A stretch of DNA of 13,920 nt. Origin: Rhodocyclaceae bacterium (lineage in GTDB: Bacteria > Pseudomonadota > Gammaproteobacteria > Burkholderiales > Rhodocyclaceae). Positions 1 through 13,920 of the stretch are shown here, in pieces. The DNA lies in NCBI GenBank assembly GCA_013821865.1, contig PNJM01000043.1, positions 1-13,920 of the forward strand, written 5' to 3'. The notes beneath the pieces are model-generated. The model saw only the letters and a program-made list of their open reading frames with translations. It made no database searches and was not told the origin of the DNA. The first letter of the stretch is position 1, and each line of letters starts with the position of its first letter. The translations under genes were made by a program, and so were the position numbers.

Positions 1-2439
1 GAAGCGCACCGTGAGGCCGGCCTGGGCCAGGCTCACGTCGTCGGCGGCCAGAGGCGGCGGTTCGGCCTCGACCTTGACGCCAGCCATCTCGCCAAGCTGG
101 CGCAGATTCTTGGCGTAACGACCGGCCGTGTGGCGCAGCACTTTGACATATTCCTGGCGCGCGGCGTCGGTCTGGCTGCGGGCCATGTCGTTATCGCGAC
201 GGCGTTCGTTGACCTCGGTTTCCTGGCGCGTGTAGTCGTCCTTGAGCTTGTCCCGCAGCAGCACCACGGTCTCGTCGGATTCCCAGGATTCCGATTCGAA
301 GCGGCGCTCAATCTCAGCGATGCGCCGGTCGATGGCCCTGACATCGCCCCATGTTTCCGCCAGCTTCAGGTTGGCCTGGGCGTCGCGCCATGCGCCGGGC
401 AGCGTGCGGCTGAGCTTGCGCCAGCCGCGCAGCCGCGCGCACTGGTCGCGCCGCGCTTCGCGGTTTTCCAGTGCGGCGATCTCTCTGGAGAGAGTTGCGA
501 TGGCGCTGGCGGTTTCCTCTGCCTGGAGCCGCACCTCGCCAAGGGCTGTTTCGGCGCCCTTGCGGTTGGCGACCGCGGCATTGACGGCGGTGATAGCGTC
601 GTCATGGGCTGTCTTCGCCTTGGCGAGCTCGGCTTGCGCGCGGGCGAACTCGTCGGCTCGGGCGGCCAGCTCACGGCCTGCGTCGATGCCATTGAGTTTC
701 AGGCGCAGGGCGGCGATGGCCTCGTCGAGCGCGCCGAGCCTCTCCCGCAGTGGCTGTGCCTCACCCCCCAACTCACCAATGCGCTCCCGCAGGGCCGCCA
801 GCCGCGCGGTGCCGAACTGGGGCGCGCCGCCGGCGGCATGGCGTCCGCCGCGCCGCTCGCGCAGGTAGCCCTTGCGGGTCACCCAGTCCTGGCTGCGGGG
901 CAGCCGCGCGCCCTCATGGGCGTCCTCGACGCGGCGGGTGCGGTCCAGCAGGCGCGTGATCCACTCGGGCACGGGCCGGGTGAGCTTCACCACATCGAGC
1001 AGAGAACCGGGGCTGGCATTGGTGGGCAGGGTCCGTTCGGGGACGACGAAGTGGCGGTAGCGCAGGTTCTCGCCGAGGGCGAAGGCCGCCTCCGCATCGC
1101 GCTCCCGCTCCAGCAGCACCACGTGGGCGAGGGCGGCGAGCACGGCTTCCACCGCTGTCTGCCAGGCGGGGTCCGTGACTTCCACCAGATCCCCGAGCAG
1201 GTCGTGAGCGATTCCCGCCTCCTCCAGGGCGCGGCGGAACGCGGCCACGTCGGTGGGGTCGGCGCGTCGCCCGGTGGCAAGGAGTTCCAGCATCGCGCGG
1301 GCCTGCTTCAGTTCATCGTCCACGCCGGCCAGTTTCGCCTGCAAGCGGCTGCGCTCGCCCTCAGCCGCCTCCAGGGCCAGTTGGTCGGCGGCGGGGTCGC
1401 TACCTGCTTGCCGCGCCGACTCGATCAGCCGCTTGCGCGCTTCGAGCCGCGTTTCCCAGCGGGTCTTGGCCTGGCCGGCCTGGGAGGCGGCGCCGTAGGC
1501 GTTCTGCTCGTGCTCGTCGGCCGCGTCCTTGCGCGCTCGGGCCACCTCCAGCGCCGCATCCAGCCCATCCTTGCGCGCGCTCTTATGCTCCCGCTCCAAG
1601 CGCTTGGAGCGCCACTCCCGGCGCGTAGCCGTGAGGGTATTGCGGGCGCCGCGGATAGAGTCGCCGAGAAGGTGGTATTCCAGCCGCGGCCGCACCTCCG
1701 ACACCAGAACGGTCTGCTCGTCCTTGAGGGCGCGCCACTCCAGGTAGCGATTCACCTTGCCTTCGTATTCGGCGAGGCGGTGGCCGATGCGGGCCTGCTC
1801 GCCTTCCATGGCCGCAAGCTCGCGGGCAACCGCGTCCTGGTGGTTCCTCGCCTCGGCGTAACGATCAAGGGTCTCCTTGTCGCCGAAGACCTGGAATACG
1901 AGATCCAGCAGCTCCTTGGGAGAGAGCTCGCACAGTTTGTCGGTCTGGCCTTGCTCCAGGGAAAGCACCTTGGCCAGCGCCGGCGTGAGGCCTGCCTGCT
2001 GCAGGAGCTGGCGCCAGTCGCGTACGCCGTAGGGCTGGCCCAGCTTCTCCATGTCCTCGATGGGCACGTCGTGGGCGGCGAGAAAGTACGCGCGGTTCCA
2101 GTCGCCGCCTTTCTTCTCGATGCGGCAGGCGAGCGTGACCATGTCTTCCTGGTGCGGCGGCCAGAAGGGACGTCGCCCATTGGGCAGGCGCCGGTTGTCG
2201 ACCACCGCGCGCAGCCAGGCGAAGTCCTCGCCGTTGCGGCGCACGTAGCGCTTGTAGTCGCGCTTGCGCGATCCCTGGCCCGAGCAGTCCAGGGCCAGCA
2301 GGGTGCGCAGGGCGTCGAGCAGCGTGGTCTTGCCCGAGCCGTTGGGGCCGACGATGGTGACGATTGCGGCATCGAGGGGCAATTCCACCCGCTTCCAGTA
2401 GTCCCAGTGGACGACCTCCAGCTTCTCGAACCGAAACAT
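1..2439 (-). CDS. SMC-type condensin ATPase, MksB/JetC-like (3' end off window)
   Basis: The minus frame is open from ATG at 2439 to the window edge, giving 813 residues with no stop, so the C-terminal ATPase head is missing only because the window ends. Residues 1-185 form the N-terminal head: Walker A GPNGSGKTT is at 31-39, and a QGQ...LSPKELLD stretch lies near 160-172, as in SMC/MukB-like proteins. Charged heptad-like coiled coil follows to about 390. Residues about 395-545 look like a hinge, with VTRKGY and a Gly/Arg-rich turn near 516-535, and coiled coil then returns. Such proteins dimerise at the hinge and extrude DNA loops with a kleisin. The start overlaps the stop of the preceding gene by one base (TGATG), so translation is probably coupled. 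The neighbours match MksF/MksE or JetA/JetB. MksB-type chromosome condensin and JetC-type plasmid defence cannot be separated here. An SbcC/Rad50-like protein is less likely given the partners. Confidence 0.88.
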   Translation of the reverse strand, partial: MFRFEKLEVVHWDYWKRVELPLDAAIVTIVGPNGSGKTTLLDALRTLLALDCSGQGSRKRDYKRYVRRNGEDFAWLRAVVDNRRLPNGRRPFWPPHQEDMVTLACRIEKKGGDWNRAYFLAAHDVPIEDMEKLGQPYGVRDWRQLLQQAGLTPALAKVLSLEQGQTDKLCELSPKELLDLVFQVFGDKETLDRYAEARNHQDAVARELAAMEGEQARIGHRLAEYEGKVNRYLEWRALKDEQTVLVSEVRPRLEYHLLGDSIRGARNTLTATRREWRSKRLEREHKSARKDGLDAALEVARARKDAADEHEQNAYGAASQAGQAKTRWETRLEARKRLIESARQAGSDPAADQLALEAAEGERSRLQAKLAGVDDELKQARAMLELLATGRRADPTDVAAFRRALEEAGIAHDLLGDLVEVTDPAWQTAVEAVLAALAHVVLLERERDAEAAFALGENLRYRHFVVPERTLPTNASPGSLLDVVKLTRPVPEWITRLLDRTRRVEDAHEGARLPRSQDWVTRKGYLRERRGGRHAAGGAPQFGTARLAALRERIGELGGEAQPLRERLGALDEAIAALRLKLNGIDAGRELAARADEFARAQAELAKAKTAHDDAITAVNAAVANRKGAETALGEVRLQAEETASAIATLSREIAALENREARRDQCARLRGWRKLSRTLPGAWRDAQANLKLAETWGDVRAIDRRIAEIERRFESESWESDETVVLLRDKLKDDYTRQETEVNERRRDNDMARSQTDAARQEYVKVLRHTAGRYAKNLRQLGEMAGVKVEAEPPPLAADDVSLAQAGLTVRF

Positions 2440-3065
2440 CAGGCGGGCTCCCGCCGCTTCTTGACAACATCGGCGAGGGCGCCTTGCAGTATGCGGGGGG
2501 CGACTTCGGCGTAGTCGAAGGCGAGATCGAGGAGCGGACCCTCGAACAGGGTCTTGTTGCGCCGCTCGATGAAGCCCAGGCGAGAGAGCACGGGTAGCAG
2601 GAACTGGATGACCCGCGCCTTCCCGCCTAGCAGGCGACCATAGTCTTCGAGCAGGGTCGTCTCGGGGATTCCGCCGGATACTTCGGTGTCCGGTTTGCGC
2701 GCGGCGCCTCCGAACATCTCGCCCTGGCCTTCGGTATCCGTGCGGGAAATCTGCCGCTCCCGCTTGGGCAGCACGATGAGCGCCCAGAGGAGTACGAGCA
2801 GCGCCACCGCATCCTTGGGCAGTCCCACGTTGCTCGCCTGCCATTCCGCGTCGGTTTCGAACACCGGCGCTTCGGCATCTTTCGCCAGCGCTATGGCGAC
2901 GTAGTCGGCGTATGGGTGGTCCAGCAGGCGTAGACCGCAGGCGGCGAGCCGTTCCTCCACCTCTTGCCGCAGGCCGGCGTCGGTGAGCAGCGCCAGCATT
3001 TCCTGGTCCCGGCGCGGCAGCACGCGCTGGGCGAGGAGGCGGGCGATGATTCGGGATGCGTCCAT
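2439..3065 (-). CDS. MksE/JetB-like winged-helix subunit of the condensin complex
   Basis: A 208-aa acidic, mostly helical protein. Residues about 140-190 read as a winged helix (LLPVLSRLGFIERRN then FEGPLLDLAF), as in MksE/MukE and DUF4194 (JetB) proteins, which bind the kleisin and modulate loading of the SMC ring. A hydrophobic helix at about 86-99 (DAVALLVLLWALIV) precedes a charged loop with KRERQISR; it is too short and isolated to suggest a membrane protein. Both ends overlap neighbours by one base: its ATG shares its A with the upstream TGA, and its own TGA does the same with the SMC gene start. Equal expression of the three subunits is therefore likely. The family call rests mainly on size, fold pattern and position between a kleisin-like gene and an SMC gene, not on a single signature motif. 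Confidence 0.72.
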   Translation of the reverse strand: MDASRIIARLLAQRVLPRRDQEMLALLTDAGLRQEVEERLAACGLRLLDHPYADYVAIALAKDAEAPVFETDAEWQASNVGLPKDAVALLVLLWALIVLPKRERQISRTDTEGQGEMFGGAARKPDTEVSGGIPETTLLEDYGRLLGGKARVIQFLLPVLSRLGFIERRNKTLFEGPLLDLAFDYAEVAPRILQGALADVVKKRREPA

Positions 3066-4336
3066 CAGGCCGCCGTGGGCAAAGGTCGCAGCCGGCCGGG
3101 AGTCATGGCCGCCACCTCTTCGCGCCCCACGGGCTCAAGGGGAACGGCGGCATCCCATTCCAGGGTCAACGGTAGGCCCGCCAGGGGCGCCATGTCGGCG
3201 TCCACGTTGACGTCGCCCAGGAATGTCAGCAGGGACAGGCGGTAGGAGGCGGCGCGGAAGCTGCCGCCTACCACGGCGTCGGCTACCGGCAACGTGGCAT
3301 CCAGGTGGCCGAGGGTGGTGAGCAGGTCGGCAAATTCGGGCGGAGGTTCCAGTGCGGCATCGGCCATCGGTTCCGCTGCTGCCGGTTCCGGCAGGGTGGA
3401 CTGGCGGCGGTCGGTGCGATGCCTGTCCACGAGTTCAGCTTCGGCTATATCCAGCATCACATCCGGCAGCACGAAAACGGGCTGCGAAATCAGGGCTAGA
3501 TCCTGGGCAGCGAGGGCGGCGAGATTGTCGACGGACAGCGTGCGCAGCCACGCGGCAACTTCGGAGGTGGTGATGCCGCCCTGGGACAGATGCACCCGTT
3601 GGCGGGTGATGGCCGCCAGCTCGCGCTGGAAGATCGAGGACATCCGCATGATCTCCGATTGGCGGGCACCAATCTCCTGGGCCAGGCGCCAGGTGTCGTC
3701 GTCGAAGCCCTCCTCGGACAGCGCACCAAGCACCTGGGTGCCTTTCTCCATCCACTGCCAGACGGAGCCCAGCTTGCCTTGGGCCGCCTTGAGACGAAAC
3801 TCGGAGCCGGAGGCGACGGCAGAGGAGAATTCCGCCTTCAGTTCCGCCAGCCGCGCCAGCAGGTGGCGCAGGTTGTCGGCGGAGAGCCGGCCCACGGCGC
3901 CGCCGCCTGCCACCTGGGAGACGAGGAAGCCCAGCGCCGCATCCTCGTCGGCGGCAAAGCGCAGCATCTGGTCGAGCGCGGCGAGCGCCATGCGCCCGGC
4001 CGGCGCCAGAATGTAGAGGCGGGTGTCGCCGTCCCAGATCAAAAGGCCGTGCTCCCGCAGGCGTTTCAGCACCGTGTCCAGCTTGACCGGATCGAGCCAG
4101 GCGAAGCGGGCCTCCAGTTCGCGGGAAGACCACTGCGGCGCCTCGGCGCGGGCGCCAATCTCGCGCATCACCGCCAGGCGCACCAGCACTTCCTCGTCCC
4201 CGCCGCGAAACAGGGCGACGAAGGCATCGATCAGGGAGCGGGCGGAGAGAAGGGCGTGAAGTCCCGGCACGTCTTCGGCGACGATACCGGGCGCGAGGAA
4301 GTCGGCGAGTTGGAAAGTGTCTTTTGCGGTGCTCAT
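3065..4336 (-). CDS. MksF/JetA-like kleisin subunit of the condensin complex
   Basis: A 423-aa soluble protein, first of the three coupled genes. Residues about 50-118 look like an N-terminal winged helix (SSRELEARFAWLDP, then VLKRLREHGLLIWDGDTRLYIL). About 150-290 is a helical middle that could form the SMC-neck contact. About 310-345 is an Ala/Pro/Glu linker, and the rest is a small C-terminal domain rich in Leu, Val and Pro. This winged helix-helices-linker-C domain plan is that of MukF/MksF kleisins and JetA. The start at 4336 is the first ATG of the frame and fits the family length, but no strong Shine-Dalgarno precedes it. The stop overlaps the start of the MksE-like gene. Transcription would start in the 4337-4490 region, divergent from nifE. 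I saw no convincing sigma-70 promoter there. Confidence 0.72.
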   Translation of the reverse strand: MSTAKDTFQLADFLAPGIVAEDVPGLHALLSARSLIDAFVALFRGGDEEVLVRLAVMREIGARAEAPQWSSRELEARFAWLDPVKLDTVLKRLREHGLLIWDGDTRLYILAPAGRMALAALDQMLRFAADEDAALGFLVSQVAGGGAVGRLSADNLRHLLARLAELKAEFSSAVASGSEFRLKAAQGKLGSVWQWMEKGTQVLGALSEEGFDDDTWRLAQEIGARQSEIMRMSSIFQRELAAITRQRVHLSQGGITTSEVAAWLRTLSVDNLAALAAQDLALISQPVFVLPDVMLDIAEAELVDRHRTDRRQSTLPEPAAAEPMADAALEPPPEFADLLTTLGHLDATLPVADAVVGGSFRAASYRLSLLTFLGDVNVDADMAPLAGLPLTLEWDAAVPLEPVGREEVAAMTPGRLRPLPTAA

Positions 4337-4491
4337 CGACAGCGATCAAAAACCGAGCGCGTCCAGTTCCCGTGTTACGGCCGCCAAGTCCGCCGCCTAT
4401 TGGCAATGGTAGCTCCGATCCCCGCTATCGGCAACGACGAAGTCCTGCCCACGAATGGATCGCTGTTTTGGTGGGATCGGGTTTCGGTCTA

Positions 4492-4507
4492 TGTCGCGAA
4501 ACCGACA
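4492..4507 (+). promoter_or_regulatory. NifA upstream activator site (TGT-N10-ACA) for nifE
   Basis: TGT at 4492-4494 and ACA at 4505-4507 are separated by exactly 10 bases, the NifA consensus. The dyad extends to ATGTCG (4491-4496) and CGACAT (4503-4508), a perfect 6-bp inverted repeat with a 6-bp centre. It lies 88 bases upstream of the -24/-12 element, a normal distance for an enhancer-type activator acting through DNA looping. Confidence 0.8.
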
Positions 4508-4595
4508 TGAACCCCGACACAAACAAACGATGGACGCCGAGGCTTGGCGCGGCATGGCACCGAATCCAAAGGCGTTTTTTGCATAAGACGTCACG

Positions 4596-4611
4596 TGGCA
4601 TAGGAATTGCA
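4596..4611 (+). promoter_or_regulatory. Sigma-54 (-24/-12) promoter of nifE
   Basis: The 16-mer TGGCATAGGAATTGCA matches the RpoN consensus TGGCACG-N4-TTGCW at the invariant GG and GC with exact spacing; only the CG after TGGCA differs. Transcription is expected near 4622, leaving a leader of about 28 bases before the ATG at 4651. This argues against in-frame ATG 4624 and excludes ATG 4614, which would lie upstream of the transcript. Confidence 0.85.
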
Positions 4612-4650
4612 GCATGACCGGCAATGAATTCTGTTGTCGGGATTGTTGCA

Positions 4651-5631
4651 ATGAGCGCGCTCACAAAAAAAGTCGCTGAACTGATGCACGAGCCCGGCTG
4701 CGCCAAGAACCAGGCGAAGTCGGAGAAGGAGCGCAAGAAGGGCTGCGGCAAGCAGCTCACGCCGGGCGCGGCCGCCGGCGGCTGTGCCTTCGACGGGGCC
4801 AAGATCGCCCTGCAGCCCATCGTGGACGTGGCCCATCTGGTGCACGGCCCCATCGCCTGCGAGGGCAACTCCTGGGACAGCCGCCACGTCTTCTCCTCCG
4901 GCCCCAGCACCTACCGCACCGGCTTCACCACGGACCTGGGCGAGCTGGACGTGATCTACGGCGGCGAGAAGCGCCTGTTCCGCGCCATCCGCGAGATCAT
5001 CGAGAAGGTCGACCCGCCCGCGGTGTTTGTCTACCAGACCTGCGTGCCGGCCATGATCGGCGATGACATCGACGCCGTGTGCAAGGCAGCGCGGGAGAAG
5101 TTCGGCAAGCCGGTGATCCCGGTGAATGCCCCCGGCTTCGCCGGCAGCAAGAACCTGGGCAACAAGCTGGGGGGCGAAGCGCTGCTGGAGCACGTCATCG
5201 GCACCGAGGAGCCCGAGTTCACCACGCCCTGCGACATCAACCTCATCGGCGAATACAACGTGGTGGGCGAGCTGTGGCAGGTGAAGCCGCTGCTGGACGA
5301 GCTGGGCATCCGCATCCTCGCCACCATCTCCGGCGACGCCCGCTACCACGACATCGCCTGCGCCCATCGCGCGCGCGCCGCCATGATGCTGTGCTCCCAG
5401 GCCCTCATCAACGTGGCGCGCAAGATGGAGGAGCACTACGGCATCCCCTACTTCGAGGGCAGCTTCTACGGTATCGCCGACATGTCGGACGCCCTGCGCA
5501 ACATCGCGCGCCTGCTGGTGGAGCGGGCGCCGATGTCGGGCTCATCGACCGCACCGAAGGTCTCCTCGGCGCTGGATAGGCCATTCAGGGCAGCGATCAG
5601 CGGATTCATCGATCGGTTCCTTCCTAGTTGA
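4651..5631 (+). CDS. nifE: NifE, truncated after about 290 residues (probable pseudogene)
   Basis: NifE pairs with NifN to form the scaffold on which the FeMo-cofactor precursor matures; the family is about 470 aa. The first ~290 residues are excellent Nif[55 protein letters not shown] and [16 protein letters not shown], including the conserved cysteines. After LLVER (near 5526) homology continues for about a dozen codons in another frame (DVGLIDRTE), so one G seems to be lost in the run at 5523-5526. NifE then ends around 5560-5566, where an antisense nifW begins. The reading frame adds an unrelated tail to the TAG at 5629-5631. The whole C-terminal domain is missing, so function is unlikely. 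Start 4651 was chosen from the sigma-54 transcript start and NifE N-termini; an in-frame ATG at 4624 is possible. The NifA/sigma-54 promoter looks intact. Confidence 0.93.
5552..5566. other. Breakpoint joining truncated nifE to truncated nifW
   Basis: To the left, the plus strand reads as NifE up to about DRTE-GLL. To the right, the minus strand reads as the NifW N-terminus down to GLSSAEE. The two homologies meet at the CTCCTC near 5561-5566, which fits either side and may be a microhomology. No insertion sequence, att site or long repeat is visible. A deletion between convergent nif operons would give this structure; a chimeric assembly join would look the same. Confidence 0.7.
5562..5609 (-). 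pseudogene. nifW: nifW 5' remnant (about 16 codons)
   Basis: ATG at 5609 opens the peptide [16 protein letters not shown], which matches the N-terminal GLSSAEDFF signature of NifW, the nitrogenase-protective protein usually about 100-115 aa. A strong Shine-Dalgarno AGGAAGGAA (5625-5617) sits 7 bases upstream and overlaps the nifV stop codon, as expected for nifV-nifW in one operon. After SAEE the reading becomes antisense nifE; the frame runs on to a stop at 5466 as a 47-aa chimera with no NifW similarity after residue 16. The gene is therefore cut by the breakpoint at 5552-5566. The call rests on a short match plus position. Confidence 0.7.
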
Positions 5632-6772
5632 GGGTGGGCGAAGGCGGCAGGGTGACGCATTCGAGGAGGAAGCTCATCAGCTCGCGGAAACCCGGGGCGC
5701 GCTTCCTGGCGACGGCGAAACTGCGCACCCGGGCGAGGATGGTGCGGGCCCGACCCTCGTCCAGGTTGATTCCCATTTCCGCATAGGTGCGGATGACGGC
5801 GCCGGAGCCGGAATGCTTGCCCAGCACGATGCGGTGCTCACGCCCCACCTCGTGGGGATCGAAGCCCTGGTAGTTGAGACAATTCTTGGTCAGGCCATCC
5901 ACGTGGATGCCGGCCTCGTGGGTGAACACCGACTCGCCGACGATGCTCTTGTTCACCGGCACAGGCCGCCCCGAGGCCCGGGCGACCAAGCCGGAGATGC
6001 CTACCAGCGCGAGTGCGTCGACGCCGGTCTCGATGTCGTGCAGATGGCGCAGCGCGATGACCGCTTCCTCCAGCGGCGCGTTGCCCGCGCGCTCGCCGAG
6101 GCCATTCACCGTGGTGTTGATGTGGGTTGCCCCCGCCAGAGCGGCGGCCAGTGTGTTGGCGGTGGCCAGCCCCAGGTCGTCGTGGGCGTGCATCTCGATT
6201 TCCAGGTCGCAGCGCGCGCGCAGGGCGCCGATGCGTTCGTAGGCGGAGAAGGGATCGAGCAGGCCCAGCGTGTCGGCGAAGCGGAAGCGCCGCGCACCGG
6301 CGGCCTGGACCGTCTCCACTACCTCGAAGAGGAATTCCGGATCGGCGCGCGAAGCATCCTCTCCGCCGACGCACACCTCCATGCCGGCGGCCAGGGCCTC
6401 GGGCACGAAGCGCCCGATGGTATCGAGCACCCAGGTGCGGTCGCGGCTGAGCTTGTGCCGGAGCTGAAGATCCGACACGGGGATCGAGAGATTGACGATG
6501 TGGGCGCCGCAACCGCGCGCCGCATCGAGATCGTTTGTGCACATGCGCCCCCACACCATCAGGCGGGCCGGCAGTTGCAGCGCCGAAATGGCAGCCACTA
6601 TCTCGCGCTCCTGAGCCCCCATGGCCGGGATGCCGACTTCCATTTCGGCGACGCCCGCCGCGGACAACGCCCGGGCAATGGCGGTTTTCTCTTCGAGGGA
6701 GAAGGCGACGCCGGCGGTCTGTTCGCCGTCGCGGAGTGTGGTGTCATTGACTGTAACCGACAGGGGTCGCAT
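5624..6772 (-). CDS. nifV: Homocitrate synthase NifV
   Basis: A 382-aa enzyme that condenses acetyl-CoA with 2-oxoglutarate to R-homocitrate, the organic ligand of the nitrogenase FeMo-cofactor. Family motifs are all present: [11 protein letters not shown] at 12-22 (active-site Arg14 and metal-binding Asp15), RFADTLG at 164-170, the metal-binding HAHDDLG at 195-201, and [13 protein letters not shown] at 224-236. The length is normal for NifV. The C-terminal part shows [13 protein letters not shown] and GKHSGSGAV, as in the LeuA/NifV group. Start 6772 has GGAAG about 7 bases upstream and lies about 23 bases after the predicted sigma-54 transcript start. It has its own NifA site, so induction under nitrogen-fixing conditions is expected. 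It is followed by the nifW remnant. A LeuA-like isopropylmalate synthase is unlikely given the length and nif control. Confidence 0.97.
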
Positions 6773-6805
6773 GGTCCGCTTCCGATTTGCTCACGCCGAC
6801 AGTCT

Positions 6806-6821
6806 TGCAAGTTGGATGCCA
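6806..6821 (-). promoter_or_regulatory. Sigma-54 (-24/-12) promoter of nifV
   Basis: On the minus strand the 16-mer TGGCATCCAACTTGCA (6821 to 6806) has the invariant GG and GC and exact RpoN spacing. The start site is expected near 6795, giving a short leader to the ATG at 6772. The first six bases, TGGCAT, are the same as in the nifE promoter. Confidence 0.85.
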
Positions 6822-6908
6822 GGCGATGCCGACGTGAAACCTGATCGGGTTTACAAGGGGATGACGCCCGAACGGCGGTGACCAGGGTGTTGGGCGGAAT
6901 GCGACAAA

Positions 6909-6924
6909 TGTCAGCTTTGCAACA
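6909..6924 (-). promoter_or_regulatory. NifA upstream activator site (TGT-N10-ACA) for nifV
   Basis: TGT at 6909-6911 and ACA at 6922-6924 are separated by exactly 10 bases. The site is about 88 bases upstream of the nifV -24 element, the same distance as in the nifE promoter. It lies in the 185-base gap between nifV and the small membrane-protein gene, so it most likely serves nifV only. Confidence 0.78.
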
Positions 6925-6957
6925 AGGCAAGCGCCCCTTGCATCGGGCGAGTGTCGA

Positions 6958-7092
6958 CTACTGGCAAAAGAAGATGCGATTGGCGAAACCCACCACGGCA
7001 TCCGGCGCGAGATAGGCGCGGAAGGCCCAGCCGGCGGCGAAGGCGGCTGCCGCCACGCCGAGCATAACCAGGATGATGCGGGCGGACTTCAT
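6958..7092 (-). CDS. Small single-span membrane protein coupled to the MFS transporter
   Basis: A 44-aa ORF whose ATG at 7092 overlaps the MFS stop codon as ATGA, the usual sign of translational coupling. It starts with a positive residue (MKSAR), has one hydrophobic segment at about 6-21 (IILVMLGVAAAAFAAG), then FRAYLAPDAVVGFANRIFFCQ split by charged and polar residues, ending in Cys-Gln. This fits a one-pass inner-membrane peptide that could be an accessory subunit or stabiliser of the transporter. I do not recognise a family. A chance ORF in GC-rich DNA is possible, but the ATGA overlap and the clean hydrophobic segment argue for a real gene. Confidence 0.6.
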   Translation of the reverse strand: MKSARIILVMLGVAAAAFAAGWAFRAYLAPDAVVGFANRIFFCQ

Positions 7093-8306
7093 CGCGCCGG
7101 CTGTGCGGCGAGGCGCGCCATGGGCCGCTCGTCCACCGGCAGGTTGATCAGCGCCGCCACAACGCCCAGCGCGATGCAGATCATCCAGACGATATCGTAG
7201 GAACCGGTCTTGTCGAACAGTAGCCCGCCCAGCCAGACGCCGAGGAAGCTGCCGACCTGGTGGCTGAAGAAGACGAAGCCGGACAGCATGGCGAGGTAGC
7301 GCACGCCGAAGATCTGCGCCACCAGGCCGTTGGTGAGCGGCACGGTGCCCAGCCACAGCAGGCCCATGGCCGCGGCGAACACGGCCACGGAAGCGGGCGA
7401 CAGCGGCGCCAGCAGGAAGACGGCGATGACGATGCTGCGCGTCAGGTAGAGGCCGGCGAGCAGGTTCTTCTTGCTCAGGCGGCCGCCCAGCATGCCGAAG
7501 CCGTAGGTGCCGAAAATGTTGAACAGGCCGATCAGCGCCAGCGCCAGCATGCCGACATTGGCGGTGAGTCCCTTGTCGAGCACGTATGAAGGCAGGTGCG
7601 CGCCGATGAACACCACCTGGAAGCCGCAGACGAAGTAGCCGAGCGTGAGCAGCCAGAAGGCGCGCTGGCCGAAGGCTTCGCGCAGGGCCTCTGCCGCCGA
7701 CTGGGCCATGGCGTGACGCGCATTGTCCTCCCGCTTTTCCGCGGTGCCGAGCGCCAGCGGCGCGATCAGCGCGGCGGCGACGGCGAGGCCGGTCAGCGCG
7801 GCGAGCCAGCCGGAGGCGGAAATGAGTTGCTGGCCCGCCGGCACCAGCAGGAACTGGCCGAACGAGCCGGCCGCGCCGACCAGCGCCAGCGCCATGGCGC
7901 GTTTCTCCGGCGCGACGGCGCGGCCGACGGCGCCGTAGATGACCGAGAAGGTGGTGGCCGCCAGACCCAGGCCGACGAGCAGGCCGGCGGCGACGGTGAA
8001 CATGAAGGGGGTGGTCGCGTACGCCATCAGCGCGACGCCGGCGGCATAGAGCACGCCGCCGCCGAAGACCACCTTGCCGGCGCCCCAGCGGTCGGCCAGC
8101 CATCCCGTGATCGGGCCGCCCGCGCCCCACACCAGGTTCTGGATGGCGATGGCGAAGGAGAACGCCTCGCGGCTCCAGCCCAGGTCCTGCGTCATCGGCT
8201 GCAGGAACAGGCCGAAAGTGTGGCGGATGCCGAGCGACAGCGAGACGACGATGCTGCCGCAGACGAGTATGAGCGTGGCGGTCCGGGGTGTAACAGGCGC
8301 GTTCAT
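7089..8306 (-). CDS. MFS transporter (12-helix, OFA/MCT-like)
   Basis: A 405-aa major facilitator superfamily carrier in the inner membrane. Alternating hydrophobic segments cover the whole length, consistent with 12 helices. LGIRHTFGLFLQPMTQDLGW in and after helix 1, GWLADRWGAGKV in the first cytoplasmic loop (the MFS loop 2-3 motif) and GMLGGRLSKKNL in the second half support the family. N-terminal features resemble oxalate/formate and monocarboxylate carriers, so an organic acid is a plausible substrate, but it cannot be named from sequence. Start 8306 gives a normal short N-terminus; the frame extends upstream to 8444, but that part has no transporter character. It diverges from gabD, shares a 127-base control region with it, and is followed by an overlapping 44-aa membrane protein. 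A role in uptake of the compound degraded through GabD is inferred. Confidence 0.93.
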   Translation of the reverse strand: MNAPVTPRTATLILVCGSIVVSLSLGIRHTFGLFLQPMTQDLGWSREAFSFAIAIQNLVWGAGGPITGWLADRWGAGKVVFGGGVLYAAGVALMAYATTPFMFTVAAGLLVGLGLAATTFSVIYGAVGRAVAPEKRAMALALVGAAGSFGQFLLVPAGQQLISASGWLAALTGLAVAAALIAPLALGTAEKREDNARHAMAQSAAEALREAFGQRAFWLLTLGYFVCGFQVVFIGAHLPSYVLDKGLTANVGMLALALIGLFNIFGTYGFGMLGGRLSKKNLLAGLYLTRSIVIAVFLLAPLSPASVAVFAAAMGLLWLGTVPLTNGLVAQIFGVRYLAMLSGFVFFSHQVGSFLGVWLGGLLFDKTGSYDIVWMICIALGVVAALINLPVDERPMARLAAQPAR

Positions 8307-8314
8307 TGACGAGT

Positions 8315-8322
8315 ACAATTGT
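8315..8322. promoter_or_regulatory. Palindrome ACAATTGT, copy 1 (possible operator)
   Basis: A perfect 8-bp palindrome, 8 bases upstream of the MFS start codon and touching the -35 region of the putative gabD promoter. A second identical copy lies 92 bases away at 8407. A repressor bound here could act on both genes. No regulator gene is present in the window. Confidence 0.4.
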
Positions 8323-8347
8323 TGGGTTTTCAACCGCGCACTATACA
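8319..8347. promoter_or_regulatory. Putative overlapping divergent sigma-70 promoters (MFS and gabD)
   Basis: On the plus strand TTGTTG (8319-8324) and TATACA (8342-8347) are separated by 17 bases, a plausible promoter for gabD. On the minus strand TATAGT (8345-8340) is a good -10 for the MFS gene, although its -35 is weak. The two -10 elements share bases, so the two directions would compete for polymerase. Confidence 0.35.
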
Positions 8348-8389
8348 CCCGGCGCACTGCCGAATAACCTTGCCGGCGCCGGGCTTTTT
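8348..8389 (+). terminator. Terminator-like hairpin in the gabD leader (possible attenuator)
   Basis: CCCGGCGC (8348-8355) and GCGCCGGG (8376-8383) form a perfect 8-bp GC-rich stem with a 20-base loop, followed by C and TTTTT at 8385-8389. The pattern is that of a rho-independent terminator on the plus strand, yet it lies upstream of gabD with no gene ending before it. It could attenuate gabD or be chance in GC-rich DNA. If transcription starts near 8354 the left arm would be partly lost. Confidence 0.35.
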
Positions 8390-8406
8390 CCTGCTGATAC
8401 ACCCGA

Positions 8407-8414
8407 ACAATTGT
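8407..8414. promoter_or_regulatory. Palindrome ACAATTGT, copy 2 (possible operator)
   Basis: Identical to the copy at 8315-8322, and 19 bases upstream of the gabD ATG at 8434. Its last bases overlap the alternative GTG start at 8413, which favours a regulatory role and the later ATG. Confidence 0.4.
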
Positions 8415-8433
8415 GAATGAACACGCCTTGGCC

Positions 8434-9897
8434 ATGAAACTCAACGACCCCCAATTTCTCAGAACGCAGTGCTACATCGATGGCGCCTGGACCGGCGCCG
8501 ACGGCGGTGCCACTTTCGCCGTGAATAATCCCGCCGATGGGGCGCAGCTTGCCGTCGTGCCCGACATGGGCGCCGCCGAAACGCGCCGCGCCATCGCGGC
8601 GGCGGACAAGGCCTGGCCCGCTTGGCGGAACAAGACCGCCAAGGAGCGCGCCGCCATCCTGCGCAAATGGTACGAGCTCATCCTGGTCAACACCGAAGAC
8701 ATTGCGCTGCTGATGACCTCCGAACAGGGCAAGCCGCTGGCCGAGGCCAGGGGCGAAGTGGTCTACGGCGCCAGCTTCGTCGAGTGGTTCGCCGAGGAGG
8801 CGAAACGCGTCTATGGCGACACCATCCCTGCCACCACTGCCGACAAGCGCCTCATTGTCATCAAGCAGCCCATTGGCGTCTGCGCCGCCATCACGCCGTG
8901 GAATTTCCCGGCGGCGATGATCACGCGCAAGGTCGCGCCGGCGCTCGCCGCCGGCTGCACGGTGGTGGTGAAGCCGGCCGAGCAGACGCCACTCACCGCA
9001 CTGGCGCTGGCGGAACTGGCGCACCGCGCCGGCTTTCCGGCGGGCGTGTTCAACGTCGTCACCGGCAGCGCCGCGCAGGCGCCGAAGATCGGCGGCGAGC
9101 TGACGTCCAGCCCCATCGTGCGCAAGCTCTCCTTCACCGGTTCGACCGAAGTGGGGCGCCTGCTCATGGCGCAGTGCGCACCGACCATCAAGAAAGTCTC
9201 GCTCGAACTCGGCGGCAACGCGCCCTTCATCGTCTTCGACGACGCCGACCTCGACGCCGCGGTGGAAGGCGCGCTCGCCTCCAAGTACCGCAATACCGGA
9301 CAGACCTGCGTCTGCGCCAACCGCCTGCTGGTGCAGGACGGCATCTACGACGCCTTCGCCGCGAAGCTCGCCGAAAAAGTGAAGCGGATGAAGGTGGGCG
9401 GCGGCCTCGAGGAAGGCGTGATGCAGGGCCCGCTGATCGACGCGCAGGCGCTGGCCAAGGTCGAGGAGCACGTCGCCGACGCGCTGGCCAAGGGCGCGCG
9501 AGTGCTCACCGGCGGCAGGCGCCACGCGCTCGGCGGCACCTTCTACGAGCCGACGGTGATCGCCAACGTCACGCCGGAGATGAAATGCGCCCGCGAGGAA
9601 ACCTTCGGTCCCGTCGCGCCGCTGTTCCGCTTCAGGAGCGAAGCCGAGGCCGTCGCGCTGGCCAACAGCACCGAGTTCGGCCTCGCCGCCTACTTCTTCA
9701 GCCGCGACGTCGCGCGCTGCTTCCGCGTCGGCGAAGCGCTGGAATACGGCATGGTCGGCGTGAACACCGGCATCATGTCCAACGAGGTGGCGCCCTTCGG
9801 CGGCGTCAAGCAGTCCGGCATCGGCCGCGAAGGCTCGAAGTACGGCATCGAGGACTACCTGGAGATCAAGTACCTTTGCCTCGGCGGCATCGTCTGA
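8434..9897 (+). CDS. gabD: NAD(P)-dependent succinate-semialdehyde dehydrogenase
   Basis: A 487-aa cytoplasmic aldehyde dehydrogenase that oxidises succinate semialdehyde to succinate, the last step of GABA and 4-hydroxybutyrate breakdown; glutarate semialdehyde is a related substrate of this family. GabD-specific stretches are clear: QCYIDGAW near the N-terminus, ITPWNFPAAMITRK, VVKPAEQTPLTAL, SFTGSTEVGR, LELGGNAPFIVFDDADLD with general base Glu258, and GQTCVCANRL with catalytic Cys292. The C-terminus GVKQSGIGREGSKYGIEDYLE is complete. E. coli GabD is 482 aa. ATG 8434 (MKLNDPQFLRTQCYIDG) matches GabD N-termini better than GTG 8413, although neither has a strong Shine-Dalgarno. A broken alcohol dehydrogenase follows after 10 bases, suggesting a former alcohol-to-aldehyde-to-acid pathway. 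Confidence 0.96.
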   Translation: MKLNDPQFLRTQCYIDGAWTGADGGATFAVNNPADGAQLAVVPDMGAAETRRAIAAADKAWPAWRNKTAKERAAILRKWYELILVNTEDIALLMTSEQGKPLAEARGEVVYGASFVEWFAEEAKRVYGDTIPATTADKRLIVIKQPIGVCAAITPWNFPAAMITRKVAPALAAGCTVVVKPAEQTPLTALALAELAHRAGFPAGVFNVVTGSAAQAPKIGGELTSSPIVRKLSFTGSTEVGRLLMAQCAPTIKKVSLELGGNAPFIVFDDADLDAAVEGALASKYRNTGQTCVCANRLLVQDGIYDAFAAKLAEKVKRMKVGGGLEEGVMQGPLIDAQALAKVEEHVADALAKGARVLTGGRRHALGGTFYEPTVIANVTPEMKCAREETFGPVAPLFRFRSEAEAVALANSTEFGLAAYFFSRDVARCFRVGEALEYGMVGVNTGIMSNEVAPFGGVKQSGIGREGSKYGIEDYLEIKYLCLGGIV

Positions 9898-9907
9898 GAG
9901 GGAGCAA

Positions 9908-10183
9908 ATGAAAATCCGTGCCGCAGTGCTGAACGAGATGGGACGCTCCCTGCCTTACGCGCAGACACGCCCCGTTTCCATCGAATCGGGCTGGGCGGCG
10001 TCGGGCTCTCCGCCCTGCTCGGCGCGAAGGCCTGCGGCGCGCGGCAGATCGTCGCGATCGACACGCTGGACGAGAAGCTGGAACTCGCCTATGCGCTCGG
10101 CGCGCATGGCGCTCGACGACATCAACCACGGCTTCGACCGCCTCGCCGCGGGCGAGGCGGTGCGCCAGGTGATCGTCTTCTAA
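9908..10183 (+). pseudogene. Zinc-dependent alcohol dehydrogenase scar with two internal deletions
   Basis: Good Shine-Dalgarno GAGGGAG lies 10 bases after gabD stops, then the normal N-terminus MKIRAAVLNEMGRSLPYAQ of zinc-type alcohol dehydrogenases (usually about 370 aa). Near 9985 it jumps, in another frame, to the NAD-binding Rossmann segment (GLGGVGLSALLGAKACGARQ, then IVAIDTLDEKLELAYALGAH; 9988-10107). Near 10106 it jumps back to the first frame for the C-terminus ALDDINHGFDRLAAGEAVRQ-VIVF. About 160 residues of the catalytic domain, including the zinc ligands, and about 110 residues before the C-terminus are missing. The frame changes cancel, so a 91-aa ORF survives by chance. No enzyme activity is expected. 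Both ends being preserved suggests recent loss, or assembly collapse. Confidence 0.85.
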
Positions 10184-10187
10184 GCGC

Positions 10188-11402
10188 TCAGCGGCCGAAG
10201 ATGCCGCGCAGGATGTTGCCGGGGCTGGGCAGCGCGCCGGACTCTTCCTTCTCCTGTGCGGGCGGCTCGCCCGCGGCCCTGCGTCCGCCGCGCCGGCCGT
10301 CGCCTTCGTCGCCCATGCCCAGCATGGTCATGCCGGTCGACTTGACCCGCACGCGCACCGCCCAATCGGGATTCCACGGCGCCTTCGGATCGGCGGGCCG
10401 CGGCGGATGCGCCAGATTCAGCTCCGGCCCGTAGGCGATCATGCGCACCATCGCGCCTTCCACGCCGGCGAAGATGCCGGAGGGAATGGCGCAGCGCTGC
10501 GTGCTGGCCGGCAGGATCACTTTCTCCTTGAGCAGCCTGTCGATCTGCGCCGGCGGCAGATAATCCATCAGGCCCCAGCCGGGATCGGGCTGCTCGCTGG
10601 AACTCCAAATGATCATTTCCTGCTCGCCTCTGGCGCCCATGGCCGAGAGGAAATAGGCGCGGGCGTTATTGACATCGCCCCAGCCGACATTGACCACGCC
10701 CTTGGGATCGCCCTGGGCCGACATGTCTATCTTGGGCATGAAATCGTGGCCTGCGCCGATGGCGAATTTGAGGCTGGCCGGCACTCCTTCGCCCGAGACG
10801 GCGTGGTCGCCGTTCAATGAAGCATTGCCGGGCACGCGCTTTCTATCCTGCTCGTTCGGCCACACCGAGCGTCCTGGCACGGCCTTGGCGCCGCGATCCG
10901 GCGCGAAGCGGCCGATCATGAATTTCGAGAACTCGCCGGGCGCGGCCTTGGCGAAATCCACCACGCGCGGCTGCCCCGGCCGCACCGTCTCGCCGCAGCC
11001 CCAGTAGAACAGCAGCCGTCCCTTCGGCTTTTCCATGTCGCCGCCCTCGCTCTCGCCGCGGCCGCGCTCGACCTGCACCGGCACCAGCGGCAGGGCGCCG
11101 CCCATGTTCAGCGCAGGGGGAATGGCGTGGCTGCCGAGGGTGCCCGACGGCTTGTTGCGCGTGTAGAGCGCGGTATCGAGCCACTTGCCCGGCGCGCCGC
11201 TGGCCATCCTGGTGCCGCCGAAGAAACCGCCGCCGAACATGCCCATGGCGCCCTCTTCCATATCGCCCATGCCGGGAATCGACATGCTGTGGGTGGCCGC
11301 GTCCGCCCAGAACTGCGCTACGGGCGGCTTGGCCTGGGCCAGGGCAAGGGAGGGAGGCAGCGCAAGAATGGCGGCCATCACAAGGTTCGGACGAAGGGTC
11401 AT
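10188..11402 (-). CDS. Exported Met/Gly-rich protein of unknown function
   Basis: A 404-aa protein with a clear signal peptide (MTLRPNLVMAAILALPPSLA, cleavage likely after LALAQA near 24), so probably periplasmic or secreted. Residues about 39-63 are rich in Met and Gly (MSIPGMGDMEEGAMGMFGGG). The middle is a compact domain with WGCGETVRPGQP, GHDFMPKID, VGWGDVNNARAYFLSAMGA and IIWSSSEQPDPGWGLMDYLP; a Cys lies in each of WGCGE and TQRCAIPSG and could form a disulfide. The last ~40 residues are low-complexity Gly/Arg/Glu. GGAG lies about 8 bases upstream of the ATG, supporting the start. Its stop is 4 bases from the convergent alcohol dehydrogenase scar. I do not recognise the family. Metal binding by the Met-rich stretch is only a guess. 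Confidence 0.85.
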   Translation of the reverse strand: MTLRPNLVMAAILALPPSLALAQAKPPVAQFWADAATHSMSIPGMGDMEEGAMGMFGGGFFGGTRMASGAPGKWLDTALYTRNKPSGTLGSHAIPPALNMGGALPLVPVQVERGRGESEGGDMEKPKGRLLFYWGCGETVRPGQPRVVDFAKAAPGEFSKFMIGRFAPDRGAKAVPGRSVWPNEQDRKRVPGNASLNGDHAVSGEGVPASLKFAIGAGHDFMPKIDMSAQGDPKGVVNVGWGDVNNARAYFLSAMGARGEQEMIIWSSSEQPDPGWGLMDYLPPAQIDRLLKEKVILPASTQRCAIPSGIFAGVEGAMVRMIAYGPELNLAHPPRPADPKAPWNPDWAVRVRVKSTGMTMLGMGDEGDGRRGGRRAAGEPPAQEKEESGALPSPGNILRGIFGR

Positions 11403-11499
11403 GTCACGCTCCGGAAAGAAAAGGGGGAGGAAAAGAACGATGGCATTCTAGCCGAAACCCGCCGGGTGCCGGGTTCCGCCCCGGCAGTGCTCCCGGCGG

Positions 11500-11898
11500 T
11501 CAGCGCGGCGCCGGGGTTGCCGCGTTATTTCCCGGCCGCCGCAGCCGGGACACGCCGCCCGCCGCTTCGGCGGCCAGCACGAACTGCGGATCGAGGGAGC
11601 GGATCGGAATGCTGCGATCGGCGGGAATGCGTCCTGCCAGTTGCAGGGCCAGGTAGCGGCCGCAGCAGACGCGCAGGAAGGAAGTGAAGTTGGCGCCGTC
11701 GCCGCCCGCCTCCATCAACTCGTCGTAGAGCCGCGTGATGAGCCGGGCGACGCTCATGCCGTCCCGCGCGCCGATCTCCTCCAGCACTTTCCAGAACATG
11801 TTCTCCAGCCGGATGCTGGTGGCCATGCCGTGCAGGCGCAGCGAGCGGGAGCGGGAGCGGTACAGATCGGGGTCCGCGCTGATGAAGATCTGGCACAT
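11500..11898 (-). CDS. Ribbon-helix-helix domain protein (RHH_4-like)
   Basis: A 132-aa protein starting MCQIFISADPDLYRSRSRSL. Residues about 17-70 (LRLHGMATSIRLENMFWKVL then EEIGARDGMSVARLITRLYD) match the ribbon-helix-helix fold of the RHH_4 group: a short beta strand, then two helices with the GMS turn. Such proteins dimerise, and some bind DNA; a specific target cannot be inferred. Residues about 77-95 (FTSFLRVCCGRYLALQLAG) form a further helix, and the tail is basic and low in structure. ATG 11898 was chosen over an upstream ATG at 11949 because AGGAGGGA lies 5 bases before it and the MCxIF start is typical of the family. It follows the DJ-1/PfpI gene by 63 bases and may share its transcript. 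Confidence 0.82.
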   Translation of the reverse strand: MCQIFISADPDLYRSRSRSLRLHGMATSIRLENMFWKVLEEIGARDGMSVARLITRLYDELMEAGGDGANFTSFLRVCCGRYLALQLAGRIPADRSIPIRSLDPQFVLAAEAAGGVSRLRRPGNNAATPAPR

Positions 11899-11961
11899 GG
11901 CCGTCCCTCCTGGGTTGGGCTGCGGAGGCGATGCGCCCCCACAACCCACTCTAGCACGTCC

Positions 11962-12543
11962 TCAGTGCGTGATGCGCGTGCCGAGCACCTGCAGGAACTG
12001 CGCGATCCAGTCCGGATGCGCCGGCCAGGCCGGGGCCGTGACGAGGTTGCCGTCGGTCGTCGCCGCGGCGATCGCAATGTCGGCATAGGTTCCGCCGGCC
12101 AGTTCCACCTCGGCCCGGCAGGCCGGATAGGCCGAGCAGCGCCGGCCTTCCAGCACCTTGGCCGCCGCCAGTATCTGGGCGCCGTGGCAGATCGCCGCCA
12201 CCGGCTTCTTCCTGTCGAAGAAGTGCCGCACGATCTCGATCACGCGCGGGTTCAGGCGCAGGTATTCCGGTGCCCTCCCGCCGGGAATCACCAGCGCGTC
12301 GTACTGCTCCGGCTGCACCTCGGCGAAAGTGGCATTGAGGGCGAAGTTGTGGCCGCGCTTCTCCGAGTAGGTCTGCTGTCCCTCGAAGTCGTGGATGGCG
12401 GTGGCGATGGCGTCGCCCGACTTCTTGTCGGGGCAGACCGCGTGCACCGTGTGGCCCACTGCCTGCAGTGCCTGAAAGGGCACCATGATCTCGTAGTCCT
12501 CGCCGAAGTCGCCGACGAGCATCAGTATCCGTTTGCCTGCCAT
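11962..12543 (-). CDS. DJ-1/PfpI family protein (glyoxalase/amidotransferase-like)
   Basis: A 193-aa single-domain protein of the class-I glutamine amidotransferase-like superfamily. The nucleophile elbow AICHGAQIL places Cys119 and His120 as in PfpI/DJ-1 proteins; Glu15 in GDFGEDYE is the likely partner glutamate, and [13 protein letters not shown] (85-97) is the family's second conserved stretch. Members act as proteases, glyoxalases/deglycases or chaperones under stress; which applies is unclear here. The length is about 20-25 residues above PfpI, with an inserted loop near 55-70 ([13 protein letters not shown]). ATG 12543 has CAGGAGAC about 7 bases upstream. It is likely transcribed alone or with the downstream ribbon-helix-helix gene. 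Confidence 0.94.
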
Positions 12544-12648
12544 GATCTGTCTCCTGTATGTGGTTGGGGGCCGCGCTACGGCGCGCCTCGGGCCATTCTT
12601 GCAGCGTCGGGGACGGGGCGGGTGGTAACGGATTACCGCAGGCCGCGA

Positions 12649-13119
12649 TCAGGGCTTGCAGGAGGCCTCGATCTGCCTGGCGGTTTCTTCGGTGGCCGCC
12701 TGGCGCTCCTCGTCGCTCATGATGACGGGCTCGCCTTGGGCATCCCTGCGGAAGACACGCCGCGCAGCCTGCAGCCTTTCAAGGCGCTCCCGTGCGGCGG
12801 CGCAATTGGCTTCATTGGCCGCCTTGTCTTCGCGGGCGCGCTTTTCTGCCTCCTCCTGTTGCTGGCGGCGCAGCTGGCGTTCCTGAAACTCGCCCTCCTG
12901 TTCCCGCAGGGATTTGCCCGGCGGGGTTGCGCCCGGGGGAGGAGGTGGGTCAATTCGAATCGCTTCGGACTTGCGGCCCTGTGGCGGCGCCTCCGAGTAA
13001 TGGGTTACCCCCTTCTCGTCGACCCATTTGTAAACTCCGGCGCCCGCGGACTGCGCAACGAGGAACATGGACAATGCCAGCGCATGCCACGGACGGTGGA
13101 GTGTATACGGACAGTGCAT
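12649..13119 (-). CDS. DUF4124 domain exported protein
   Basis: A 156-aa protein with an N-terminal signal segment (ALALSMFLVAQSAGAG, cleavage near residue 27) followed by GVYKWVDEKGVTHYSEAPP, the hallmark of DUF4124, a small periplasmic domain common in beta- and gammaproteobacteria with no settled function. A Pro-rich stretch (about 58-68, with five Pro in a row) leads into a highly charged Glu/Arg/Gln helix at about 70-115 that is probably coiled coil, and two Cys (one in NCAAARERL, one in the last residues) could pair. ATG 13119 was chosen because it places the signal peptide at the N-terminus; the frame is open further upstream, but there it is antisense-like to thiC. It starts 11 bases after thiC stops, so read-through from thiC is likely. 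The Shine-Dalgarno is weak. Confidence 0.87.
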   Translation of the reverse strand: MHCPYTLHRPWHALALSMFLVAQSAGAGVYKWVDEKGVTHYSEAPPQGRKSEAIRIDPPPPPGATPPGKSLREQEGEFQERQLRRQQQEEAEKRAREDKAANEANCAAARERLERLQAARRVFRRDAQGEPVIMSDEERQAATEETARQIEASCKP

Positions 13120-13130
13120 GGCACCGGGGC

Positions 13131-13920
<790 letters not shown>

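Follow-up and report, generated by a model that had tools for sequence, protein, structure and literature searches.

Bacterial pseudogenes erode under a deletion bias, through internal deletions that use little or no microhomology and leave collinear pieces of the gene behind. The locus described here displays the same pattern, and only the affected genes differ. It lies in a window of 13,920 bases, which is the entire contig C43 of a draft MAG (G000; 2.76 Mb in 548 contigs, with 81.7% completeness and 2.45% contamination).

That nif clusters are gained and lost is established. In Paenibacillus, nif genes are reported to have been gained horizontally and later lost in some strains, whose flanking regions are still homologous to those of nitrogen-fixing strains (PMC3961195). 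The history that we propose for our locus is likewise one of gain followed by loss; the loss reported in Paenibacillus is that of the cluster, whereas here broken pieces and predicted promoters remain. PMC12903952 proposes nifHDKENB as the minimal set, places the loss of N2-fixation genes near the tips of the tree, and describes partial core sets without nifE and/or nifN. Our locus likewise retains part of nifHDKENB, but nifHDK and nifB were also not found, and nifE is broken rather than absent. The loss of nitrogen fixation is usually seen as mere absence, and a half-eroded island that keeps its promoters would show that loss at base level. What appears to be new is the case, a well-preserved example of the intermediate state; the kind of system is not new. 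A literature search returned no title or abstract reporting the nifE|nifW junction found here. We interpret the locus as most probably an acquired nif island that is decaying by deletion.

The nifE|nifW junction

The window was compared mainly with two relatives, the same-family genome G031 and the groundwater MAG L052 (JACPEG010000012.1), which holds the nearest NifE relative. Its features are as follows.

1..4336, minus strand: condensin-like (JetC/MksB-type) genes left of nifE, with an SMC-like protein that runs off the contig (PADLOC JetC1, E 4e-17; SMC_prok_B, E 5e-27)
4492..4507, plus strand: candidate NifA upstream activator site for the nifE remnant, TGT-N10-ACA (exact match; the window has one other)
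4596..4611, plus strand: candidate sigma-54 (-24/-12) promoter of the nifE remnant, TGGCATAGGAATTGCA
4651..5526, plus strand: nifE remnant, residues 1-292 in frame (TIGR01283 positions 3-298 of 459)
5525..5526, plus strand: 1-base deletion (frameshift) in nifE, with the best breakpoint after 5525 against L052
5527..5557, plus strand: out-of-frame continuation of nifE homology, by similarity to L052, G031 and other NifE
5553..5558, no strand: putative deletion junction nifE|nifW, with 2-4 nt fitting both parents (breakpoint scan against L052 and G031)
5556..5609, minus strand: nifW remnant, residues 1-18, matching the start of G031 nifW
5624..6772, minus strand: nifV, intact homocitrate synthase (TIGR02660 positions 2-364 of 365, 527.6 bits, cut-off 462.9)
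6806..6821, minus strand: candidate sigma-54 promoter of nifV-nifW, TGGCATCCAACTTGCA
6909..6924, plus strand: candidate NifA site of nifV-nifW (palindromic pattern, exact match)
6955..6960, no strand: predicted right boundary of the island insertion, where a small ORF behind an MFS gene ends (congener similarity begins at 6955-6996)
9908-10180, plus strand: zinc alcohol dehydrogenase in three collinear pieces, residues 1-27, 201-240 and 346-375 of 375, against the full-length gene of congener G002

The start of the nifE remnant at 4651 is common to L052, and the listed ORF begins at an upstream in-frame ATG (4624). Against the equivalog model TIGR01283, this ORF reached 437.4 bits (E 5e-131), below the cut-off of 505.1, and its match to PF00148 covers positions 1-245 of 399 and then ends; the L052 gene scored 646 bits over positions 3-459. 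Judged by these profiles, the ORF is a remnant and no longer a NifE. It is 95% identical to L052 and 93% to G031 at the amino acid level. Its predicted product would consist of 292 residues of NifE followed by a foreign tail. Because the scaffold on which FeMo-cofactor is assembled consists of NifE and NifN, such a locus would be unable to support a normal Mo-nitrogenase. The dN/dS of the nifE piece against L052 (0.097) resembles that between L052 and G031 (0.079), so the break looks recent, with no long drift as a pseudogene.

On the opposite strand, nifV is full length and above the cut-off of its equivalog model, and is thus a NifV by profile; it is 71-75% identical to the genes of the three relatives tested (L052, G031 and G034). 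The 64-residue minus-strand ORF that holds the nifW remnant matched no Pfam or NCBIfam model, including NifW (PF03206), as expected given that only about 18 NifW residues remain. Its assignment to NifW is based on alignment to the start of G031 nifW and not on a profile: DNA 5557-5612 aligns with the start of a 107-residue G031 ORF (24 residues, 67% identical, E 1.4e-4). The best models for this G031 ORF are NifW (106 bits, slightly under the cut-off of 117), and it sits directly behind nifV, as in the window.

The first-pass annotation had proposed that NifE and NifW homology end within a few bases of each other, with NifE stopping at 5521. The two ends do abut, at 5556-5557; position 5521 instead lies near the loss of frame, and NifE similarity persists in the shifted frame to about 5557, the L052 counterpart of this stretch reading GADAELLARTEAL. 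A breakpoint scan placed the junction at 5556-5558 against G031 and at 5553-5557 against L052, with a tie at 5537-5538 in the latter; the best position is 5556-5557. Ends that share 2-4 nt are the usual footprint of illegitimate recombination. The annotation had also noted a join free of mobile elements, in agreement with our result: none was seen among the ORFs examined, and the window contains no tRNA. In a plasmid collection, 256 records matched, and none covered 80% of window positions 4590-6800 in one place.

Gene order in both relatives bears out the arrangement guessed in the annotation, in which nifE-nifN-nifX converges on nifW-nifV. In G031, nifV-nifW face nifX, nifN and nifE on the opposite strand, with 3.7 kb between the two alignment ends, and nifN (607 bits) and nifX (167 bits) are above their family cut-offs. 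In L052, nifD, nifK and nifE are full length and over the cut-off, nifN is broken, and about 7.2 kb separates the end of nifE from nifW and nifV on the opposite strand; the genes that we take from sequence features to be nifH, nifX, fixA and fixB are also present, and this nifX aligns at 81% to that of G031. Because the two sets of genes converge in both relatives, the window would be short of about 3.7 kb relative to G031, or about 7.2 kb relative to L052. The convergence itself is shared by all three; the G031 genes and the L052 nifE are whole, whereas the window has truncated copies of nifE and nifW and has lost all that stood between the two. By this comparison, the window is the convergent arrangement of G031 and L052 minus one internal deletion. 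As a separate observation, the ORF of the broken L052 nifN (11522-12853) keeps profile positions 2-82 only, and the remainder lies in another frame from residue 100.

We consider it likely that the nifE|nifW junction is a real deletion. A single event with ends sharing 2-4 nt would have taken out the 3' portions of nifE and nifW together with nifN, nifX and anything else behind them, much as the annotation had suggested and as the comparison with G031 and L052 demonstrates at the level of gene order. The comparison also demonstrates the outcome, in which the 5' ends of two convergent operons are joined and a 1-base deletion additionally breaks nifE. The single-deletion account is supported for the junction, with two additions: the frameshift lies about 30 bases before the junction, and the junction is one of several deletion scars.

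Promoters and the search for further nif genes

Upstream of both nifE and nifV, a TGT-N10-ACA site is paired with a TGGCA-N6-TTGCA element 87-88 bases away; the window holds two copies of each motif. Both patterns were drawn up with the sites already known, and neither is strong by itself: two or more occurrences appeared in 35 of 200 shuffles for TGT-N10-ACA and in 48 of 200 for TGGCA-N6-TTGCA. The paired pattern of a NifA site with a sigma-54 element produced only two matches in the whole assembly, one before nifE and one before nifV, and the reversed-pattern control produced none. By sequence pattern, with the pair at its usual distance, both qualify as NifA/sigma-54-controlled nif promoters. 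A looser expression recovered the pair upstream of nifE in G031 and Azospira and upstream of nifV in L052 and Azospira. Both predicted promoter pairs survive intact, as does nifV, so the remnants could still be transcribed if NifA were supplied.

Searches of the assembled genome returned little else. PF00148, which covers NifD, NifK, NifE and NifN, matched the nifE fragment only, with no second copy; NifB was not found; and NifH had no match above the cut-off and one below it, 32 positions long. NifW also had no match in the assembled genome, in a search that lacked a positive control (0 of 14 control genomes exceeded the NifW cut-off). With 20 kb of DNA from the nif region of L052 as query, the nifE (91%) and nifV (74%) pieces were recovered, along with eight weaker matches of 65-78%. 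These searches covered the second nifE, nifN or nifW for which the annotation had called, and none was found in the assembled genome, with the caveat given for NifW. A functional Mo-nitrogenase, with all of nifHDKENB intact, was thus not found in an assembly that is 81.7% complete, so this absence is not final; more nif genes may sit in the unassembled stretch between contigs C33 and C43. For the interpretation of MAGs, nifV, nifE or rnf fragments do not mean that an organism fixes nitrogen.

These results also bear on whether the remnants have been kept for use, with a NifA-controlled, intact nifV making homocitrate or the truncated NifE taking on a new role. The full-length nifV, the two intact predicted promoters and the low dN/dS of the nifE piece would all fit such a function. 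A recent break would give an equally low dN/dS, however, the nifE piece is frameshifted and ends in a foreign tail, and no nitrogenase partner was found in the assembly; we regard retention for use as extremely improbable.

Proposed island edges and the rnf remnant

Synteny with congeners extends over most of positions 6955-13920 of the window (MFS gene, aldehyde dehydrogenase, thiC). Positions 1-6960 have no long match in 15 congeners, the best non-self matches being 411 bases at 65% or 139 bases at 75%, and NifE was found in none of the 15. In the 10 congeners compared (G001, G002, G004, G007-G012 and G015), the left neighbour of the MFS block is a gene that we take from its sequence to be nitronate-monooxygenase-like, and for which the NCBIfam match is FabK, below the cut-off. 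The gap between this gene and the MFS block is 1-2 bases in G009-G012 and about 870 in G002. In our own genome, the nitronate-monooxygenase-like gene and its further neighbours are found on contig C33, where rnf genes fill 1.4 kb in the place of the MFS block.

L197 (contig C33 of G000), 1-1383, minus strand: nif-type rnfABC remnant, with truncated RnfA, an RnfA|RnfB junction and an in-frame RnfB-RnfC fusion

The left edge of the island falls on C33 at about 1381-1444, beside the gene that adjoins the MFS block in congeners. We infer that C33 and C43 join through the island, the intervening piece being missing from the assembly. Judged from these contigs, the insertion has a nif or rnf edge at both sides. 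Since the two flanking genes are adjacent in all 10 congeners of the comparison and none of the 15 has NifE, a nif island would have been inserted, in the lineage of this species, between the nitronate-monooxygenase-like gene and the MFS gene with its small companion ORF, and would then have been losing function through deletions.

The rnf remnant is scarred in the same manner. RnfA begins at profile position 72, RnfA 186 is joined to RnfB 37, and RnfB 132 is joined to RnfC 7; each of the two junctions falls on one base against G023 and G032, and by the offsets 123-125 and 205-243 bases would have been lost. The RnfC part is 64-69% identical to its best seven relatives (G023, G032, G016, G021, G025 C6, G022 and G058), all of which are on nif-bearing contigs, against 52-56% to the nearer congener type and 55% to our genome's own copy of that type on C44. 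By these best seven matches, it is closer to Rnf encoded beside nif than to the Rnf of its own genus; three other Rnf copies on nif contigs are no closer than the congener type (G024 60%, G020 59%, G025 C7 55%). The fused RnfB-RnfC stretch was not recovered elsewhere: a query of 56 residues gave 93 matches among 119 candidates, none of them spanning more than 64% of it.

A mis-binned or chimeric contig, the alternative raised by the first-pass annotation, would place the left half (1-6957) in a different diazotroph, joined to a congener contig. The lack of a long congener match for any part of 1-6960 and the 92-95% identity of nifE to G031 and L052 are what such a join would produce. It is disfavoured by C33, which carries the other congener flank and also enters nif-type rnf genes at the same gene boundary, since two independent joins flanking one intergenic gap would hardly arise by chance. 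The halves joined at nifE|nifW are, moreover, neighbours in the same order and orientation in G031 and L052, the right flank is syntenic with congeners, and GC content is 64-73% without a step at 6957. We therefore consider a chimeric contig quite improbable.

At its left end, the window carries the condensin-like genes, an SMC protein and two partner genes, beside the nif remnant; they are possibly an anti-plasmid system. When tested as a Wadjet/JetABCD or MksBEF set, the large protein matched JetC1 with the E value given in the feature list, and the other two proteins had no PADLOC match, the second having only DUF4194 at E 0.076. The fourth gene of a Wadjet/Mks-type set would fall off contig C43.

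Scars outside nif and the timing of loss

The zinc alcohol dehydrogenase stands behind the aldehyde dehydrogenase and is full length in G002 and five other congeners; the G002 gene is 94-97% identical to the copies in G001, G006, G008 and G011 and 68% identical to that in G012. Coordinates imply that the window copy has lost 523 and 329 bases, with 0-6 nt fitting both sides. As a non-nif gene, this scarred dehydrogenase was counted against the reading of a decaying nif island.

A census was conducted on 154 ORFs conserved in G002 and G001, 107 of which had no match in the contigs of our genome that were examined. The 47 matched ORFs, some matched in part, were located on 43 of our contigs: 31 are intact, 9 lie at contig ends and 7 are partial. 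The partial ones comprise the dehydrogenase scar, two artefacts of ORF calling on C33 that overlie intact genes (one thiolase-like, one permease-like), and four others, one of them on C22. The scars thus appear not to be general in the assembly, yet not confined to nif genes. An earlier check covered 14 selected ORFs near the site. Genome-wide decay was considered and set aside: a first census, in which 59 G002 ORFs were matched (35 in full, 24 in part), was dominated by contig ends and doubtful ORFs.

These counts bear on a further alternative, in which the organism carries an intact nifE-N-X...W-V region whose middle was passed over by the assembler or by a chimeric amplified molecule. The draft state of the MAG, the odd sizes of its contigs and the clustering of several scars of deletion type, including one outside nif, in a single region would be expected of such an artefact. 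The junctions, however, share 0-6 nt, presumably too short for a jump by a k-mer assembler; most of the congener-conserved ORFs matched in the census are intact; and the assembly holds no other NifD/K/E/N-type gene and no NifH above the cut-off. In addition, the fused product has an identical counterpart in a protein database, whose entry gives 13,151 bases rather than 13,920 as the longest contig; this probably points to another assembly, perhaps of the same sample. An assembly artefact is accordingly judged unlikely, though less so than a chimeric contig.

Synonymous divergence bears on the origin of the island. The dS of nifE is lower than that of thiC against G031 (0.54 vs 1.04) and G034 (0.32 vs 0.54), which fits horizontal gain; it is not lower against G020 (0.58 vs 0.47) and G025 (0.65 vs 0.57), which argues against transfer. 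The island may be a mosaic, because nifV is 71-75% identical to three relatives while nifE is 95% identical to L052, and because G031 has no close Rnf (best 43%). Should L052 belong to the same genus, nif may have a longer history there.

We tentatively propose, with somewhat less than even confidence, that the species is in the midst of losing a recently acquired nif island, through deletions that range from about 0.1 to several kb, use 0-6 nt of microhomology and strike nif, rnf and a neighbouring gene, with nifV and the predicted NifA-controlled promoters so far spared, and that populations with whole islands, partial islands and empty sites may coexist. If so, they would give direct access to the order in which nif genes are lost. 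Other lineages may have reached a similar point, as the broken nifN of L052 hints.

Several minor observations concern the assembly as a whole. The sizes of 38 of 45 G000 contigs (C1-C41, C43, C44, C46 and C102) are exactly divisible by 30; by chance, about 1.5 such contigs would be expected. An artefact on a 30-base grid was considered and rejected, since the junctions lie off the grid (nifE|nifW at 5556-5557; dehydrogenase at 9984/9985 and about 10100-10104; rnf at about 1043 and 745 on C33). A grid-like look of 11 gap intervals against G002, 10 of which held a multiple of 30, was likewise discounted: many of the intervals are wide, and most correspond to G002 spacers of 87-138 bases, where a dispersed element of about 113 bases occurs. 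This element recurs in the genus, in G002 intergenic regions (e.g. L134 5775-5890) and on C2, C85, C69 and other contigs of G000. Two further places may hold deletion scars. On C22 (L284, 3627-3689), residues 2-22 alone match a 333-residue ORF conserved in G002 and G001; on C5 (L247, 10813-10952), similarity to residues 5-38 of a G002 ORF gives way, within 38 bases, to residue 93 of the ORF that comes next in G002, a possible gene-to-gene deletion join near 10914-10952.
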